A stretch of DNA of 27,182 bases, taken from positions 1 to 27,182 of the IMG/VR virus record IMGVR_UViG_3300022934_000143. One strand, written 5' to 3'. How positions within the stretch are numbered: position 1 is the first letter of the stretch; the number at the start of each line of letters is the position of its first letter. The notes below the pieces were generated by a model. The model saw only the letters and a program-made list of their open reading frames with translations, made no database searches and was not told where the DNA came from. Shown here piece by piece: positions 4,974 to 16,343 of the stretch. The position numbers were made by a program, and so were the translations under genes. The stretch comes from a virus.

Positions 4974-5879
4974 ATGGCTTTTGCAGTATCATCAGGTCGT
5001 CCGGACTACTCCGGCAATTTTATCCCTGAGATTTGGTCGGGCAAACTCATCGAGAATTTCTACGATGCGACTGTCCTATCCGCAATCTCTAACACTGACT
5101 ACGAAGGTGAGATTCGTAACATGGGTGATACGGTTAATATCCGTACTACTCCGGAAATCACCATCAAAACCTACGTTAAGGGTCAGACTCTTGCAGTCGA
5201 AAACCCTGACAAGGCTAAGCTGCAGCTCGTAATCGACAAAGGCGAATACTTCGCTTGCGTTGAAGACGACGTTGACCAAGTTCAGTCTGACATCGCATTG
5301 ATGGATCAGTGGTCTAAAGACGCTTCTGAGCGTATGAAGATCAAGATTGACCAGCGCGTGTTGACTGATCTGTTGCCTGACGTTAGCGCGAGCAACAAAG
5401 GTGCAACAGCTGGTCGTATCTCCGGCAACCTAAACTTGGGTGTAGCCGGTACTCCACTATCTCTGACAAAGACCAATGTCATCGACTCTATTGTTGATGC
5501 GGGTACTGTGTTGGACGAGGCTAACTGTCCTGAACAGGATCGTTTCCTTGTTATCCCAGCAAAGATGGCTGGTCTTATCAAGCAATCTGACTTGAAAGAC
5601 GCGTCTATCACTGGCGACAACACTTCACCTCTTCGCAATGGTCGCCTTGGCATGATTGACCGTTTCACAGTCTATGTGTCTCACAACCTGTACAAGTCAG
5701 GTGCTGAGTTCAGCTGTATTGCTGGTCATAAGATGGGCTTCACTTTTGCATCTCAGATGACAAATATGGAAACCATCCGTTCAGAGACAACTTTCGGCAA
5801 CATTATCCGTGGTTTGCAAGTTTATGGCTATAAAGTAGTTAAGCCAGAAGCTCTCGCAACTATGGTTGTCAGCGTATAA
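4974..5879 (+). CDS. Major capsid protein
   Basis: A 301-aa coat protein, probably HK97-fold, following the scaffold and led by the strongest ribosome binding site seen here. The N-terminal part (PEIWSGKLIENFY, about residues 18-30) leads into NMGDTVNIRTTPEI, typical of the N-arm and E-loop side of capsid proteins. The middle has a DQRVLTDLLP helix. The C-terminal half carries FLVIPAKMAGLIK, a surface strand pair (GRLGMIDRFTVYVS) and a final beta-strand region (IIRGLQVYGYKVVKPEAL), common in podovirus coat proteins. No long extra domain and no cleaved prodomain are apparent. The call is strong from order and pattern together. Confidence 0.92.
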   Translation: MAFAVSSGRPDYSGNFIPEIWSGKLIENFYDATVLSAISNTDYEGEIRNMGDTVNIRTTPEITIKTYVKGQTLAVENPDKAKLQLVIDKGEYFACVEDDVDQVQSDIALMDQWSKDASERMKIKIDQRVLTDLLPDVSASNKGATAGRISGNLNLGVAGTPLSLTKTNVIDSIVDAGTVLDEANCPEQDRFLVIPAKMAGLIKQSDLKDASITGDNTSPLRNGRLGMIDRFTVYVSHNLYKSGAEFSCIAGHKMGFTFASQMTNMETIRSETTFGNIIRGLQVYGYKVVKPEALATMVVSV

Positions 5880-6704: not shown

Positions 6705-6953
6705 ATGGCTAAGCAGATCGACAAATCGAAGATGGCTTGTAACAAGCCAAAGCGGCAGGTACAGGGTGGCAAAAAATTTGTTGTTAAAGCCTGTCAAGAT
6801 GGTAAAGAAAAAATTATTCGATTTGGCGATGCCAACATGACGATCAAAAAAGATCAGCCAGGGCGGCGCAAAAATTTTCGTGCGAGGCATGGCTGTGACA
6901 GCAGACCTCCATCAAAGATGACCGCAAGATATTGGTCATGTAAGAAGTGGTGA
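6705..6953 (+). CDS. Small basic cysteine protein (82 aa)
   Basis: An 82-aa protein with strong positive charge and four cysteines (residues 12, 30, 64 and 79). It contains a conserved-looking block GRRKNFRARHGCD followed by a C-terminal TARYWSCKKW. I recall this block from many marine phage genomes, but no function has been assigned to my knowledge. The charge and Cys/His placement suggest nucleic-acid or zinc binding. GGAGG upstream lies within the end of the preceding gene. It is the first of three consecutive tiny basic genes. Confidence 0.75.
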   Translation: MAKQIDKSKMACNKPKRQVQGGKKFVVKACQDGKEKIIRFGDANMTIKKDQPGRRKNFRARHGCDSRPPSKMTARYWSCKKW

Positions 6954-6958
6954 TAGAT

Positions 6959-7120
6959 ATGGCGGCACCTAAAGCACAATCTAAAAAAGACGCCTGCTAC
7001 TATAAGGTGAAGTCAAGATATAAAGTTTGGCCCTCGGCTTACGCGTCAGGTGCCTTAGCAAAGTGCCGTAAAGTAGGCGCTAAGAACTGGGGTAATAAAA
7101 GTGGCAGTAAGAAAAAGTAA
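6959..7120 (+). CDS. Tiny basic protein with CYYKVKSRY motif (53 aa)
   Basis: An intact 53-codon frame from ATG 6959 to TAA 7118-7120. It contains KDACYYKVKSRYKVWPSAYA (residues 10-29), then GALAKCRKVGAKNWGN and a lysine-rich end. Two Cys and about a dozen Lys/Arg give it a strong positive charge. I recall the YKVWPSAYASGALAKCR pattern from marine phages and algal viruses, which supports it as a real gene despite its size. It starts 5 bases after the previous stop and overlaps the next gene by 20 bases. Molecular function is unknown; DNA binding is plausible. Confidence 0.8.
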   Translation: MAAPKAQSKKDACYYKVKSRYKVWPSAYASGALAKCRKVGAKNWGNKSGSKKK

Positions 7121-7373
7121 AGAGGGGGCAGACCTTAAACGGTGGTTTAAGGAGAAGTGGGTGGATGTACGCACTGGTAAGCCTTGTGGTAGACAACAAG
7201 GTGAAAAACGTGGTACTCCATATTGTAGGCCGAGCAAGCGAGTGTCGAGCGAAACGCCTAAGACTGCGTCAGAGTTAACAGCGGCGGAAAAGAAGAGTCG
7301 CGTGGCGCAGAAGAAGCGAATAGGACAGCCTGCAGGCAAGGCTAAACGTGTTAAACCTGTGAGGAGGTCGTAA
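7101..7373 (+). CDS. Small basic protein with RWFKEKWVD motif (90 aa)
   Basis: A 90-aa protein beginning at GTG 7101, since no in-frame ATG exists nearby. GGGG at 7089-7092 is the only candidate binding site. It has LKRWFKEKWVDVRTGKPCGR near the N-terminus, then GTPYCRPSKRVSSETPKT and a Lys-rich tail. This resembles a recurrent viral family, perhaps the one catalogued as DUF5872, but the name is from memory. The pI must be very high. It overlaps the upstream tiny gene in another frame and the downstream gene by TAATG, so the cassette is translated as a coupled unit. Confidence 0.8.
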   Translation: MAVRKSKEGADLKRWFKEKWVDVRTGKPCGRQQGEKRGTPYCRPSKRVSSETPKTASELTAAEKKSRVAQKKRIGQPAGKAKRVKPVRRS

Positions 7374-7681
7374 TGGCTAGATGGCTTAAGAACATCAACG
7401 ACGGTGAGATTTACGGCTGGAACGAAATTCTGGCGGAAAACCCGTTGACCGTAGAGGTTACGGAAGAAGAAGCATTTCCTGAAAAGTTTATACCCAAAAA
7501 ACAAAAAGGGCGTAAACCTAAGGTACAGTTAGACACTGAGATACCAGAAGAGCCAGATACTACTCCACCGGAGTTGGCTGCAGAAGTAACTAGGAGCTTA
7601 GAGCGTGCTAGAAATAGCAAAGGCCATTATATTGCTGATGACCCTAGCACCCCAGATAACGAAGCGTGGGTTGAGCAATGA
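7373..7681 (+). CDS. Acidic hypothetical protein (102 aa)
   Basis: A 102-aa protein that starts within the previous stop (TAATG) behind GAGGAGG. The N-terminus MARWLKNINDGEIYGWNEIL resembles short proteins found next to head-tail genes in podoviruses, where a similar (T/D)GE(I/V)Y.W pattern occurs. The rest is acidic and Pro-rich, likely flexible, with one basic patch (KKQKGRKPK). It is strikingly acidic beside three very basic neighbours. The function is unknown. Confidence 0.7.
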   Translation: MARWLKNINDGEIYGWNEILAENPLTVEVTEEEAFPEKFIPKKQKGRKPKVQLDTEIPEEPDTTPPELAAEVTRSLERARNSKGHYIADDPSTPDNEAWVEQ

Positions 7682-8322
7682 TTTTAGACGATGTAATCTT
7701 AGAGGTTAGACGGATTATTCAAGATACGAATACTCCGTTGCGTTATAGTGATGCCGTGCTGCTGGGGTTTGCAAACCAAGCACTGAAGCGTATTGCTGTG
7801 CTGCGCCCAGACCTCTTTGCTTACATTGGCGAAATCCCTTGTACAGACGGTGCGGTTGTTCAGTCTACTCCAGATGACTCTATCCGCTTGATCGAGATTT
7901 ACTCAGTCAAGGACGGTAACGGTATTATTGAAACAAACCGCGAGGCATTGGATCAAGCGTATCCTACATGGATGAATGATCCAGCAGGCCCAGCTGTAAA
8001 CTTTATGAGGCATGTGCGGAACCCCAACAAATTCTTTATCTACCCCAAAGCTCCAGTGGATCAAATTCTTATAGGCGAGTATTCAAAAACTCCGCCTGAT
8101 TATGACGGTGTAACACCGGTAGACTTGTTGCCAGACGCATATGAACCTGTTGTCATAGATGCTACAGTGTTTATCGCTGAGTCTGTTGACAACGAACATG
8201 TTAATTCGCAGCGTGCGCAGTTGTTCCAGCAGTCCTTTACCCAAGCCCTTGGCGTGGCTGCTCAGTCTAGATCAATTACTGATCCTGAGCGCGGCGGGCT
8301 ACAAGAGGAGGATGTTGTCTAA
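7678..8322 (+). CDS. Head-tail adaptor protein (first of two)
   Basis: A 214-aa protein whose N-terminus (ILEVRRIIQDTNTPLRYSDA, residues 7-26, then LLGFANQALKRI) matches a phage adaptor-like family I recall as DUF6682. Members sit between capsid and tail genes and are probably the ring that docks on the portal. The middle is beta-rich (KFFIYPKAPVDQILIGEY), followed by a helical C-terminus. It overlaps the previous gene by 4 bases (ATGA) and the next by TAATG. The adaptor role is inferred from family resemblance, size and location. Confidence 0.7.
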   Translation: MILDDVILEVRRIIQDTNTPLRYSDAVLLGFANQALKRIAVLRPDLFAYIGEIPCTDGAVVQSTPDDSIRLIEIYSVKDGNGIIETNREALDQAYPTWMNDPAGPAVNFMRHVRNPNKFFIYPKAPVDQILIGEYSKTPPDYDGVTPVDLLPDAYEPVVIDATVFIAESVDNEHVNSQRAQLFQQSFTQALGVAAQSRSITDPERGGLQEEDVV

Positions 8323-8975
8323 TGCCTAATCGTAAGTTTTCAGAAATTGTTACTAGGCTTGCTCCAAGCGTCCCTGGCGCTCCTAATGTGATTGTGGAGC
8401 AGTATGTACGAGACGCAGCTATCGAAGCGTGTGAGCGCACTCTAGCATGGCGACATGAGCAACCCCCAATTCGATTAACACAGGGTGTATACGATTATCC
8501 GTATGACCCGCCTAACTTTGCTGAAGTACATGCAATTATTACGGCGACAGTAAACGGAAACAAAATGAAGCCTGTGTCACTAGACCAGTTGCATGACATA
8601 TACCCCAAGTGGCCGTTCACTAGCAGCGATGAAGAAGCTGAACCTAGATATATTACAACCATTGATGTTGATAACTTTGCAGTAGCACCTCTTCCTGACG
8701 GCGGCACTAACTATGATGTCCGTATGATTATTGCTTGTAAGCCGCTACGCACAGCTACGGAAATGGATGAAACTGTTTTAGATGATTTAGAAAATGTAAT
8801 CATGCACGGTGCGTTGCAGCATCTTTTAGTGCTCCCAGACCGCACATGGAGCGACAGAGAGCTAGCGTCTTACCATGCTAAACAATTTGCGTACAAGCTA
8901 GCAGAGCGCAGGGCTAGAGCCAATCTCGGCACTGGTCGAGGCTCTATGCGTGTGCAATACCCAAGATTTGCGTGA
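8322..8975 (+). CDS. Head-tail adaptor or tail-tube completion protein (second of two)
   Basis: A 217-aa protein built like the preceding one. It has an N-terminal helical region (VEQYVRDAAIEACERTLAWRH), a beta-rich centre with YDYPYDPP, and a helical C-terminus (YHAKQFAYKLAERRARANLG). GAGGAGG at 8305-8311 and a TAATG overlap couple it to the first adaptor. Tandem small connector genes of about 200 aa are typical for stacked rings under the portal in podoviruses. A T7 gp11-like tail role is the main alternative. Confidence 0.65.
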   Translation: MPNRKFSEIVTRLAPSVPGAPNVIVEQYVRDAAIEACERTLAWRHEQPPIRLTQGVYDYPYDPPNFAEVHAIITATVNGNKMKPVSLDQLHDIYPKWPFTSSDEEAEPRYITTIDVDNFAVAPLPDGGTNYDVRMIIACKPLRTATEMDETVLDDLENVIMHGALQHLLVLPDRTWSDRELASYHAKQFAYKLAERRARANLGTGRGSMRVQYPRFA

Positions 8976-12106: not shown

Positions 12107-13603
12107 ATGAGCATCAAATTTGCTAACAACGCGTTCGGCACTCTAAACGCTGGCATTTCTAGTTCTGACACTAGCATTACGTTGTCTAGCGGTCAGGGTG
12201 CTCGTTTTCCTGCGCTTCTTACCGATGAATATTTCTACATCACGCTGATTGACACATCTAACAATCTAGAAGTTGTTAAGTGTACGGCAAGGTCTACCGA
12301 TGTTCTTACGATTGTTCGCGCCCAAGATAATACTACAGCGCGGGCATTTGTCATTGGTGACCGTGTAGAGCTTCGTGTAACAGCAGCAGCTTTAGAAGAT
12401 TCGTCTAACCCTTATGACAAGGATACCTCGTCTACGGGGTCTTTTGCATTGCCAGTTGGTACTACGGCTCAAGAACCTGCGGCTGCGGACAGTGAAGGCC
12501 ACATTAGATACAACTCTGATGATAATGTTGTGTACTTCTCGAACGGTACCGATTGGGTTAAGGTGTCATCCGTTGTACCTATTTTAAGCAGTATATCAGG
12601 TAGTCTCTACAACGGAGCAGCGTCTACGCTTACATTAACCGGCACAGGTTTTTTAACAGCTAACTTAGTTGTTAACTTTACGCAATCTTCTGATTCTATC
12701 GACGAAGATGTAACGGTTACACCGGCTTCAGATACATCAGCTACAGTTAATGTCCCTGCGGCAGTGTATAACAACGTTACAACGGGTAATGCTGTATCTA
12801 TAACGGTCACTAACTCAGATAATATTGAGTCTGCGGCCTTAACCACAACTGCTATAGGGCTACCTAGCGGCGGCACAGTTACTACATATAGTACTTACCG
12901 TGTACACACATTTACTAGCTCCGGTACTTTTACCGTACCCACAGGTTTTTCTGCGTCTGCAGATATACTACTTGTAGCTGGCGGAGGTGGCGGTGCGCAG
13001 GATACATCTGGTGGCGGAGGCGCAGGAGGTATGCTAGAGCAAACATCTGTAAGTATATCAGCGTCTAGTAACAGCATTGTTGTTGGGGCAGGCGGAAACA
13101 AAGCAAATTCTAGCCGAGGGTATGACGGCGCGGACTCTACTGGTTTGGGTTACACTGCAGTAGGCGGAGGCGGAGGCGCAGGTAGTGCAAATGCAGCTAA
13201 CGCTGGCTCCGGAGGCTCCGGAGGCGGAGGCGGAGGCGGTAGATCCGCAGGCTCAGGAACGTCAGGGCAAGGATTTGCAGGTCAGACAGCAAGCGGCGCT
13301 GCGGGCGGCGGCGGTGCAGCCGAAGTTGGTGGTACAGACGGCAGCGGCCAAGGTGGCGACGGCAGATCAAACTCTTACAGAACTGGTTCAGCTGTTACTT
13401 ATGCTGGAGGCGGTGGCGGTAGAGACTCTGGAACTTCATACGCAGGAGGAGCCGGAGGCGGTGGCGGCGGCAGTACGTCTTTTGCAGCCTCAGTCTTAAA
13501 CGGAAGCGCTAACACTGGCGGTGGCGGCGGGGGCTATTACGGTAGTTGGGGCGGAGCTGGAAACGGTGGCTCCGGCATTGTAGTTATTAGGTACCAACCA
13601 TAA
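12107..13603 (+). CDS. Tail fibre with glycine-rich adhesin tip
   Basis: A 498-aa modular receptor-binding protein. Residues 1-95 are an attachment module shared with the fibre at 13979. Residues 112-155 hold a shaft segment common in fibres (ALPVGTTAQEPAA, EGHIRYNSDDN, YFSNGTDWVKV). Residues 157-247 look like an IPT/TIG Ig-like domain (SGTGF-type loop, ATVNVPAAV). Residues 262-498 start with YRVHTFTSSGTFTVPTGF and then run through nine or more poly-Gly stretches to GNGGSGIVVIRYQP. That is the pattern of glycine-rich adhesin tips, which pack as polyglycine II helices in T-even-type adhesins such as S16 gp38. It likely determines host range. Confidence 0.85.
   Translation: MSIKFANNAFGTLNAGISSSDTSITLSSGQGARFPALLTDEYFYITLIDTSNNLEVVKCTARSTDVLTIVRAQDNTTARAFVIGDRVELRVTAAALEDSSNPYDKDTSSTGSFALPVGTTAQEPAAADSEGHIRYNSDDNVVYFSNGTDWVKVSSVVPILSSISGSLYNGAASTLTLTGTGFLTANLVVNFTQSSDSIDEDVTVTPASDTSATVNVPAAVYNNVTTGNAVSITVTNSDNIESAALTTTAIGLPSGGTVTTYSTYRVHTFTSSGTFTVPTGFSASADILLVAGGGGGAQDTSGGGGAGGMLEQTSVSISASSNSIVVGAGGNKANSSRGYDGADSTGLGYTAVGGGGGAGSANAANAGSGGSGGGGGGGRSAGSGTSGQGFAGQTASGAAGGGGAAEVGGTDGSGQGGDGRSNSYRTGSAVTYAGGGGGRDSGTSYAGGAGGGGGGSTSFAASVLNGSANTGGGGGGYYGSWGGAGNGGSGIVVIRYQP
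12979..13583 (+). repeat. GGN-rich low-complexity DNA encoding poly-Gly stretches
   Basis: Clusters of GGCGGAGGC-type runs code for repeated GGGGG segments separated by variable loops. Such runs are prone to slippage and recombination, which would shuffle the adhesin loops. The array is irregular and protein-driven, not a CRISPR or intergenic repeat. Confidence 0.7.
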
Positions 13604-13613
13604 GGAGGGCAAC

Positions 13614-13979
13614 ATGGGACATTATGCAAAAGTAGTTGACGGTGTTGTTGCCCAAGTAATAGTTGCTGAAGCTGATTTTTTTGATTCGTTTGTTGACAAC
13701 TCACCAGGTGAGTGGGTGCAAACATCCTACAACACACGTCTCGGTATTCATTATAATCCTGAAACAGGTGAGCCAAGCGCTGATCAATCTAAAGCTCTTA
13801 GAAAAAATTACGCGGGTGTGGGGTTTTTATATGACGGAACCGGTTTCTACGAACCTAAACCTTTTGCTAGTTGGACGTTTAACAACACTACATACGGCTG
13901 GGAGTCTCCAGTAGAGCGCCCGAGTGAAGGGGCGTACACATGGAACGAAGAAACACAGACTTGGGATGAGGTGTCGTAA
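13614..13979 (+). CDS. Conserved marine-phage protein between two fibres (121 aa)
   Basis: A 121-aa protein with AKVVDGVVAQVIVAEADFFD at the start, a central NTRLGIHYNPETGEPS, and PFASWTFNNTTYGWESP near the end. Similar proteins, from memory, occur widely in cyanophage and pelagiphage genomes near structural genes. The function is unassigned. A fibre-assembly helper or small virion protein is plausible because it sits between two fibre genes that share an N-terminal module. It has AGGAGG upstream, and its stop overlaps the next start (TAATG). Confidence 0.75.
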   Translation: MGHYAKVVDGVVAQVIVAEADFFDSFVDNSPGEWVQTSYNTRLGIHYNPETGEPSADQSKALRKNYAGVGFLYDGTGFYEPKPFASWTFNNTTYGWESPVERPSEGAYTWNEETQTWDEVS

Positions 13980-15115
13980 TGGGCGTAAAAGTTACAAATA
14001 ATGCTTTCGGCACACTCTCCGCAGCGATAACCTCGGCATCTACGACTATCACGTTGGACAGCGGTCAGGGCGCACGTTTCCCTACACTAGGTGCGGGCGA
14101 CTACTTTTACGCTACGCTTGTCGATACAGCAAATAATCTCGAGATCGTAAAGGTAACTGCACGGTCTACAGATTCTATGACTGCTGTTCGCGGTCAAGAC
14201 GGAACATCTGCGTCGTCTTTTGCGATTGGTGATCGTTTTGAACTTCGCCCCACTGCAGCTCTGTTTGAAGACATTATTGATAACGCATCTGTAGACGGCG
14301 TAGTTTCTTCTGCTACTGATACTGCTATCTCTATTGACTCTTCAAACAATGTTACGATTCAAAACGGAGCTAGCGCGGACTCCGCTGTAAACATGGTACT
14401 GAAAAGTACTGAAGGTGTAACACTTACGCTTTTTGCCGACTCAGATAACGTTACTGAAAGCCACAACCCTCAACTGGTATTTAAACAAGACGGTAACAAT
14501 CAGCACCTTATTATGGGTGTAGCGGGTGCTAATAATGATCCTGTAACGGGTGTTGTTTCTAACGGATCGTATCTTAACGCTACTTCCGGCGGCTCTACCC
14601 GCAGCCTATCTCTAGGTTCAAACGGTGCCACCGGTGTTTTTATTGACGAAAACAACTATGTCACAAAACCTAATCAACCTATCTTTTATGCTTATAGAAG
14701 CTCCTCTTACACACTAGGTACAGGAGATATAGAGATAAGTGTAAACAGTACACTTGTTAACAGGGGTAGCCACTATAGTACTTCAGGTAATAGGTTTACT
14801 GTACCGGCAGATGGCGCGTATAAGTTTGATTTTCACATAAGCTGTTACCGTGATGATGTGAGTAGTTTGGACTCACAAGATGACAGTATGTATATAACCG
14901 TGAAAAAGAACGGGGTAGAGTTAGGCCGAAACGCCGGATCGCCATCGAGTATGCTTAACCCCGGGGTTCTATCTAGAAACGGCGTTGAGTTGACTTGTTC
15001 GTTTAGTTGTATTTTACAGTTAGCAGAGAACGATTATATCGAGCCTGAGCTTGGCGATGTATCTGTGTCGCTAACTTTAAGTAACGCAAACTTTTCTGGG
15101 TTTTTAATAGGATAA
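13979..15115 (+). CDS. Tail fibre with C1q/TNF-like tip
   Basis: A 378-aa fibre. Residues 1-93 are clearly paralogous to the start of the fibre at 12107 (NNAFGTL, ITLxSGQGARFPxL, NNLEVVK/NNLEIVKVTARSTD, GDRxELR). Residues 100-240 are a beta-rich shaft. Residues about 243-378 look like a C1q/TNF-type trimeric jelly roll: YSTSGNRFTVPADGAYKFDF, DSMYITVKKNG, then QLAENDYIEPEL and a final strand NANFSGFLIG. That domain is used by several phages for receptor contact. It starts by TAATG overlap. Confidence 0.85.
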   Translation: MGVKVTNNAFGTLSAAITSASTTITLDSGQGARFPTLGAGDYFYATLVDTANNLEIVKVTARSTDSMTAVRGQDGTSASSFAIGDRFELRPTAALFEDIIDNASVDGVVSSATDTAISIDSSNNVTIQNGASADSAVNMVLKSTEGVTLTLFADSDNVTESHNPQLVFKQDGNNQHLIMGVAGANNDPVTGVVSNGSYLNATSGGSTRSLSLGSNGATGVFIDENNYVTKPNQPIFYAYRSSSYTLGTGDIEISVNSTLVNRGSHYSTSGNRFTVPADGAYKFDFHISCYRDDVSSLDSQDDSMYITVKKNGVELGRNAGSPSSMLNPGVLSRNGVELTCSFSCILQLAENDYIEPELGDVSVSLTLSNANFSGFLIG

Positions 15116-15574: not shown

Positions 15575-15740
15575 GATACAGCAAGAACTTCTCACGCACG
15601 AGGCCGTCTGCGCAGAGAGGTACCAAACATTCATCACACGGGTTGATAGACTTGAACGTATTCTGATTGTTGCATGTGGCGCAATCATTGTAGGATTAGC
15701 ATCAGTGTTAGCCGCTGTTTTGTTAGGAGGTTCATCATGA
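15552..15740 (+). CDS. Small single-TM protein, holin or antiholin candidate (62 aa)
   Basis: A 62-aa protein from GTG 15552, chosen over ATG 15561 on binding-site spacing. A charged amphipathic N-terminal half (EIQQELLTHEAVCAERYQTF, then VDRLERI) leads into one membrane helix (residues 36-58, ILIVACGAIIVGLASVLAAVLL) and a short tail. Similar tiny proteins recur beside phage lysis genes. Five more lysis-region genes follow, so a lysis-timing or holin role is likely but not proven. Confidence 0.7.
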   Translation: MAKMTVAEIQQELLTHEAVCAERYQTFITRVDRLERILIVACGAIIVGLASVLAAVLLGGSS

Positions 15741-15877
15741 TGAACGATAAAAAGAAAAAGAAACCTACTGCTTCTTACGCTAAAGGCGGCGAAGTGTTTA
15801 AGCCTTGCCCTGGTTGTAAGACTAAACGCGCTTGTGCGATGGCCAAAAAGTGTATGAAGAAGGTTTACGGTAAGTAG
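15737..15877 (+). CDS. Tiny basic four-cysteine protein (46 aa)
   Basis: A 46-aa protein from ATG 15737, overlapping the previous stop (ATGA). AGGAGG at 15725-15730 is 6 bases upstream. A more upstream in-frame ATG at 15674 lies inside the previous gene and lacks a binding site. After a lysine run it carries CPGCKTKRACAMAKKC (residues 24-39), a CxxC-x5-C-x5-C pattern suggestive of a metal-binding knuckle. Over one third of residues are Lys or Arg. It is a soluble, probably nucleic-acid-binding protein lodged inside the lysis cluster. The function is unknown. Confidence 0.65.
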   Translation: MMNDKKKKKPTASYAKGGEVFKPCPGCKTKRACAMAKKCMKKVYGK

Positions 15878-15902: not shown

Positions 15903-16343
15903 ATGTTAGCCGAACTCGCCGCCGCAAACGCCGCTTTTGCGGTTATTAAGCAAGCTATCAGCAATGGGCGCGAACTAAGTTCATATGCTGGTAAAATAGG
16001 TGAAATTACCAACGCTAAAGAAGACTTACAGCGGAAGGTAAATAAAAAGAAAGCCGCACACCAAGGTACAGACTTTGAAGAGTTCATGGCTTTGGAGCGG
16101 ATAAAGGAGCAAGAAGACGAGCTAAAACAATGGATGATATACGCCGGTAGGCCAGGTCTTTGGGGGGACTGGGTAAAGTTCCAAAAAGACGCTAGGATTG
16201 CTAGACGGGAGGCTGAAGCAGCGGCTAAACGCAAGCAAGCGCAAATGGCTGAGAACGTGTTGATAGGAGTTTTAATCCTAATCCTAATCTCCGCAGTTAT
16301 AGGCTTAATCTGGTGGATGCTCTGGCTGAAAGGAGTTGCATGA
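15903..16343 (+). CDS. Coiled-coil protein with C-terminal membrane anchor
   Basis: A 146-aa protein of a type I recall as very common in marine phages. An N-terminal helix (ELAAANAAFAVIKQAI), a charged coiled coil (about 33-77), the conserved-looking QWMIYAGRPGLWGDW (76-90), a second charged helix and a terminal membrane segment (118-141) give a tail-anchored topology. The function is unsettled. It could be a lysis accessory or a membrane-targeted virion protein. A spanin role is doubtful, because classic inner-membrane spanins have the anchor at the N-terminus. Confidence 0.75.
   Translation: MLAELAAANAAFAVIKQAISNGRELSSYAGKIGEITNAKEDLQRKVNKKKAAHQGTDFEEFMALERIKEQEDELKQWMIYAGRPGLWGDWVKFQKDARIARREAEAAAKRKQAQMAENVLIGVLILILISAVIGLIWWMLWLKGVA

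Follow-up and report, generated by a model that had tools for sequence, protein, structure and literature searches.

Basic virion proteins and orphan families of tailed phages and eukaryotic viruses

The general view is that tailed phages neutralise their packaged DNA by means of cations and polyamines, not basic proteins (PMC3281028). Very basic virion proteins are described from eukaryotic viruses, including baculovirus P6.9, ascovirus P64, a DNA-condensing protein with both 2-cysteine adaptor motifs and basic repeats (PMC6163548), and A278L and A282L of PBCV-1, a virus whose basic proteins co-purify with the viral DNA (PMC3281028). In phage T4, the small, basic internal proteins IPI, IPII and IPIII are packaged in the head, which they enter via a 10-residue N-terminal capsid-targeting sequence, and the prohead protease gp21 cleaves at L/I-X-E (PMC9026906). 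Several orphan families are also relevant. Tlr6F recurs as a conserved protein without known function in polinton-like viruses, virophages, giant viruses and phages (PMC4642659, PMC12220804), and the algal giant virus CpV-BQ1 is annotated with both DUF5754 and DUF5872 proteins (PMC12085832). In addition, the protein family T4-GC 119/phrog_727, with P-SSM2_123, SSM1_115 and S-SCSM1 ORF29 as members, is encoded among head and neck genes and is unannotated as to function.

The cassette and evidence that it is coding

The window analysed here is a stretch of viral DNA of 27,182 nucleotides (IMG/VR record IMGVR_UViG_3300022934_000143), in which three small genes lie in tandem on the plus strand: ORF1 (6705..6953; 82 aa, ATG start), ORF2 (6959..7120; 53 aa from an ATG start, or 57 aa in a longer alternative GTG reading) and ORF3 (7101..7373; 90 aa, with a GTG start inside ORF2). 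ORF1 and ORF2 are 5 nt apart, ORF2 and ORF3 overlap by 20 nt, and ORF3 overlaps the next gene by 1 nt. The products have a K+R content of 28-31%, a net charge of +22 to +26 per 100 aa, pI values of 10.5, 10.3 and 11.1, and four, two and two cysteines, respectively. These values bear out the first-pass annotation, which had described three consecutive, overlapping or near-touching, tiny basic cysteine proteins. Nearly all other genes of the window have a pI of 4.1-6.1, making the cassette a composition outlier of an acidic operon; the exceptions outside it are a possible small gene at 15674-15877 and a gene at 15903-16343. The former, on the plus strand and also delimited as 15656-15877, may encode a small basic cysteine protein (MMNDKKKKKPTASYAKGGEVFKPCPGCKTKRACAMAKKCMKKVYGK), which falls outside the three families described below and has weak relatives in three other loci (L210, L211, L223).

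When contigs of close relatives were compared with the window, synonymous sites in ORF1-3 were near saturation against a protein identity of 91-98%, as exemplified by an ORF1 comparison with a pS of 0.65 and a pN of 0.023. The dN/dS ratio was mostly 0.01-0.05 in close comparisons of ORF1 and ORF3, with a median of 0.10 for ORF2. Since the proteins are little changed despite near-saturated synonymous sites, ORF1-3 are genuine genes under strong purifying selection, and an origin as chance basic ORFs is ruled out by dN/dS together with the recurrence of homologues.

Family relationships

ORF3 is a member of DUF5872 (PF19197; here family F3), the family that it shares with CpV-BQ1, and scores 60.8 bits against a curated Pfam cut-off of 27.5 (E = 2.4e-16), although it aligns to no more than the latter half of the profile (49-111 of 116). 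ORF1 is a member of phrog_7595 (family F1), with a full-length profile match over residues 3-82 (E = 4.5e-16). Its overlap with the DUF5754/Tlr6F profile (PF19058) is weak, at 15.3 bits under a curated cut-off of 27.4; ten of 37 ORF1 relatives match DUF5754 at E <= 0.01 (best 5.6e-4), and a fold match of the ORF1 model to a Tunisvirus protein has an E value of 0.065 (prob 0.97). ORF1 is classed as Tlr6F-like only and not as a DUF5754 member, and it shares a head operon with F2 and F3. ORF2 matches phrog_727/T4-GC 119 (E = 7.6e-20) at profile positions 264-308 of 450 and is a single module of that protein (family F2; consensus DACYxKVKSRYxVWPSAYASGALxKCRKVGAxNWG), not the whole; no Pfam family was found for ORF2, and NCBIfam gave no useful match. 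A fourth family, DUF6321 (F4), is linked to F1 by an hhalign match over 15 columns (RRKSFxAR) and by overlapping HMM matches, which are suggestive only of a common origin of the two in one superfamily.

The first-pass annotation had described the cassette proteins as recurring in marine viruses, and homologues were indeed found in phage records (111 for ORF1, 365 for ORF2 and 10 for ORF3) and in hundreds of IMG/VR contigs. A scan of genome contigs gave four matches only (MAGs, three; a Prochlorococcus assembly, one), likely viral. Relatives of ORF2 and/or ORF3 are also present in CRP-901 (L002:5457-5977) and CRP-2 (L001:2290-2540), where they were missed or misframed in GenBank, so that counts of annotated genes understate the cassette. 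Roseobacter phage CRP-2 and Prochlorococcus phage P-SCSP2 are cultured examples in which the genes are separate.

Co-occurrence and fusion of the modules

Among 80 IMG/VR loci selected by ORF1 relatives alone, F1, F2 and F3 were all adjacent in 61, so that the co-occurrence which the first-pass annotation had proposed as a check lies far beyond chance. Likewise, F3 was near F2 in 74 of 80 loci selected by ORF2, and F2 near F3 in 77 of 80 selected by ORF3; these samples represent the closest relatives and are not random draws. Gene order varies (F1-F2-F3, F2-F3-F1 and F4-F2-F3), and in 45 IMG/VR ORFs a single frame encodes F3 and F2 at the least; fusions take the form F3~F2~F4 in 25 loci and F3~F2~F1 in L019, L038 and L053. 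That the partners stay together through changes of order and fusion argues strongly for a common task. The T4-GC 119/phrog_727 proteins resemble the cassette in combining F3, F2 and an apparently F1-related DUF6321 module, but differ in that a single chain, with linkers and predicted protease sites, takes the place of three genes. An alignment of a three-module fusion with the single modules misplaced the divergent F2 rows and was excluded from modelling.

Further cysteine modules are seen in fusions of cyanophages (P-SSM2_123, which is L006:7599-8414, L242:42662-44215 and L243:13537-15024), where the repeated motifs CWDGYxxKGMKxxxGKxxPNCVKK and RYCxxCxKxETRxxCAYG accompany an N-terminal CPxGYYxCYTDKKCKxIPxG module. 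The module set is thus larger than the three of the window.

Placement among head genes

The upstream neighbour of the cassette, in the same operon, is the gene of the major capsid protein (MCP; 4974..5879, plus strand; phrog_267). Directly downstream lies a gene for an acidic 102-aa protein (7373..7681, plus strand), conserved in window-like loci, followed by two SU10-type adaptors on the same strand, the first a head-tail connector (7678..8322; PF24175) and the second at 8322..8975 (PF24175; phrog_437). The cassette therefore stands, as had been proposed, in a virion operon before the head-tail genes. Farther downstream, the window encodes likely tail or receptor-binding proteins at 12107-13603 and 13979-15115, with a glycine-rich domain (PF21722) and a C1q domain (PF00386).

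The modules sit in head-assembly regions in three unrelated layouts: MCP-[F1 F2 F3]-adaptor in window-like viruses, TerS-[fused modules]-TerL in T4-like cyanophages and portal-scaffold-[F1]-MCP in T7-like phages. No module was found in the corresponding region of Rhizobium phage RHph_TM3_14A, the MCP of which is 54% identical to that of the window, which indicates that the function is dispensable there and that the cassette is an accessory of the window lineage.

Module proteins in virions

The presence of a fused homologue in virions is supported by mass spectrometry performed by others. ORF29 of S-SCSM1, which carries F3, F2 and DUF6321 modules, bears the label 'virion protein' in the record of the phage. 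Mass spectrometry of this phage was reported to detect 45 virion proteins, ORF213 and ORF214 among them (PMC9602691); as a consistency check, the 43 'virion protein' labels counted in the record outside 100-179 kb, together with these two proteins named in the paper, match the published number. In S-CREM2, gp137, which carries a DUF6321-type module only, was detected with four unique peptides (PMC10665884). Mass-spectrometry detection may reflect carry-over, as the authors themselves caution.

The three-module protein P-SSM2_123 bears the note 'similar to Synechococcus phage S-SM1 protein'. In the stretch of P-SSM2 examined, the other carriers of this note are all structural (gp13, 14, 15, 18, 19, 20, 21, 23 and 3), and it is absent from gp16, gp17 and the replication genes. 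As S-SM1 is a phage with a measured virion proteome (PMC3037559), and as the note is restricted to structural proteins, we infer that the homologue of P-SSM2_123 was detected in S-SM1 virions. In S-SZBM1, the DUF6321-module protein S-SZBM1_192, which has a capsid-targeting-like start, is absent from the published virion list of that phage, and neither the detected virion protein S-SZBM1_190 nor S-SZBM1_195 was found to carry modules. No virion proteomics of a window-type podovirus was found in the literature searched, and the cryo-EM paper on P-SCSP1u offered nothing useful on minor proteins. Few usable peptides would come from trypsin digestion of the cassette proteins, with a single good one from ORF2.

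Predicted protease sites and targeting sequences

In fused proteins, the motif [ILVMF]xE was scored within 12 residues upstream of each module, using distinct windows and shuffled controls. It preceded F3 in 34 of 40 cases (shuffles, mean 11.6 and maximum 20; random linker windows, mean 10.3 and maximum 19) and F2 in 31 of 47 (shuffles, mean 17.9 and maximum 25), with no significant excess before DUF6321 (8 of 26 against an expected mean of 4.9). DUF6321 variants that start with GAAWT are all preceded by E. The gp23 of cyanophages carries LSE or LTE at about residue 52, where a site for the same protease is expected. From these L/I/V-x-E sites in the linkers, it is predicted that prohead protease would release the modules of the cyanophage fusions.

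Starts of the MKTFSQFLLE type occur on module proteins of L023, L026, L050, L068 and L046 and on S-SZBM1_192, and such capsid-targeting-like starts are enriched relative to other ORFs (p = 0.008), although they are few and several come from related contigs and are not independent. The targeting sequence and L/I-X-E cleavage of the T4 internal proteins are thus mirrored in cyanophage module proteins, whereas inspection of window ORF1-3 revealed neither a capsid-targeting sequence nor an LxE site. Lacking the targeting sequence, ORF1-3 are not classed as T4-type internal head proteins, from which they also differ in that no sequence relation was found and in that the T4 proteins are poorly conserved and dispensable but the modules highly conserved; the likeness is one of small size and basic charge (pI 10.3-11.1 for ORF1-3). 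Beside the cyanophage fusions, a small protein (L242:44215-44535, L245:7289-7606, L247:18312-18629) has a T4-like targeting start of MKTFKQFMSE, MKSFQDFLQE or MKSFKSFLSE and is likely to be a further internal head protein of cyanophages.

The prohead protease works inside the forming head. A fold search with the ORF1 model recovered the domain in a protein named XkdF and in Vibrio phage ICP1 ORF125 (L414:3709-4545, minus strand). The latter, annotated as hypothetical, has Peptidase_S78_2 at residues 35-159 (6.6e-10) and a match to F1 at residues 184-261 (phrog_7595, 5.8e-11), a stretch with a further match (4e-8) to a 'minor head protein and DNA pilot' profile. These profile matches make ICP1 ORF125 a prohead protease of the XkdF type, the C-terminal part of which is an ORF1-type module. 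It differs from ORF1 by the peptidase domain, and F2 and F3 were not identified beside it.

Structure and cysteine pairing

The ORF1 model (pLDDT 85.3) is predicted to comprise a beta hairpin and two helices, and ORF2 is predicted to be helical; the F3~F2 model is of low confidence (pLDDT 68.9). No solved relatives were found by sequence search or by fold search in the PDB.

After thinning of the sequences to 80% identity, Cys12 and Cys30 are both present in 11 ORF1 relatives, both absent in 12 and singly present in 1, while Cys64 and Cys79 are both present in 17 and both absent in 9, the two pairs varying independently of each other. In ORF2 relatives, Cys13 and Cys36 are both present in 9 and both absent in 13. 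Both cysteines are kept in all gap-free rows of F3 (60 rows; ORF3 Cys29/Cys42) and of DUF6321 (21 rows). A tree-based test of paired change gave 5, 2 and 1 independent events, too few for significance. As the cysteines are kept or lost in pairs, the pattern suggests disulfides rather than a zinc site. Zinc, which the first-pass annotation had raised, fits poorly with this pairing, and a zinc finger or zinc ribbon was rejected since there is no conserved four-ligand Cys/His set and F2, F3 and F4 have only two conserved cysteines.

Proposed role and alternatives

Of the roles suggested in the first-pass annotation, packaging in the head has become the best reading, owing to the homologous modules in cyanophage virions, and the ORF1-3 proteins probably lie alongside the DNA within the phage head. 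The explanation preferred here, held with a little more belief than doubt, is that the cassette encodes small, basic modules with pairwise cysteines that are capsid-internal, DNA-associated and taken in at head assembly. The modules would be incorporated into the forming head, stay inside with the packaged DNA, neutralise or organise it much as T4 internal proteins and the protamine-type packing proteins of eukaryotic viruses do, and probably exit together with it when a cell is infected. Each would be supplied by its own gene in the head operon of the window virus and other small podoviruses, and in T4-like cyanophages F3, F2 and an F1 or DUF6321 module would be joined in one pro-protein, to be cut in its linkers into separate basic proteins. 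Charge and conservation point to packaged DNA as the partner; no DNA-binding assay for any family member was found in the literature searched. DNA condensation is demonstrated for P64-type systems, to which the likeness of ORF1-3 is in charge alone, and no Pfam link of ORF1-3 to the 2-cysteine adaptor was found.

The data on virions and targeting would fit equally well with effectors that the head carries and that work on the host once injected; their charge would then help them to enter or to bind a target, and would not be for DNA packing. There is precedent in T4, where the internal proteins and Alt are packaged and ejected, and where IPI inhibits a restriction enzyme and so acts in anti-restriction (PMC9026906). 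However, T4 internal proteins are poorly conserved in an arms-race-like manner (PMC9026906), whereas the modules are under strong purifying selection, are common to very different phages and co-occur as a constant set of three to four, and an effector role is considered unlikely.

Modules that bind scaffold, capsid or portal, and that assist in loading the prohead protease or similar proteins or in cementing the neck, with DNA binding incidental, are regarded as improbable to a like degree. The fusion of F1 to an XkdF-type protease in ICP1 and the minor-head/DNA-pilot match argue for such an assembly role, as does the location of the genes next to those for MCP, adaptor and terminase in viruses of several types, but F2 and F3 are also free-standing, very basic and without a partner domain, and the modules are basic (+18.7 per 100 aa) against near-neutral fusion linkers (+2.0). 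Coating or condensation of the host nucleoid by late-made, unpackaged proteins, the other role suggested at first, is very improbable despite the strong positive charge and the want of a recognised enzyme fold, because homologous modules are detected in virions, and they also lie in head operons and have predicted prohead-protease sites in cyanophages.

More broadly, a conserved, modular 'phage protamine' system is put forward tentatively, with the balance of judgement against it. Its modules would be basic and disulfide-paired, two being kin to families known from giant algal viruses and polinton-like viruses. Many marine tailed phages would package them together with their DNA, whether the modules are encoded separately or made as a capsid-targeted polyprotein that the prohead protease cuts.

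Significance

The families as orphan domains, and head-packaged basic proteins as a kind, are already known. In the literature searched, with most subscription literature outside its scope, the family names had annotation-level mentions only, and the linked module set and its proposed role hence appear new. Tlr6F/DUF5754, DUF5872 and DUF6321 are widespread viral orphan families, which their linkage brings under a single, testable, head-associated hypothesis. Alternation between individual genes and a polyprotein cut by the protease would also illustrate well how gene fusion can operate in virus assembly. If the proposal is true, conserved, packaged basic proteins would change the picture of DNA neutralisation in the abundant phages of the ocean and hint at a packing device common to phages and eukaryotic DNA viruses.
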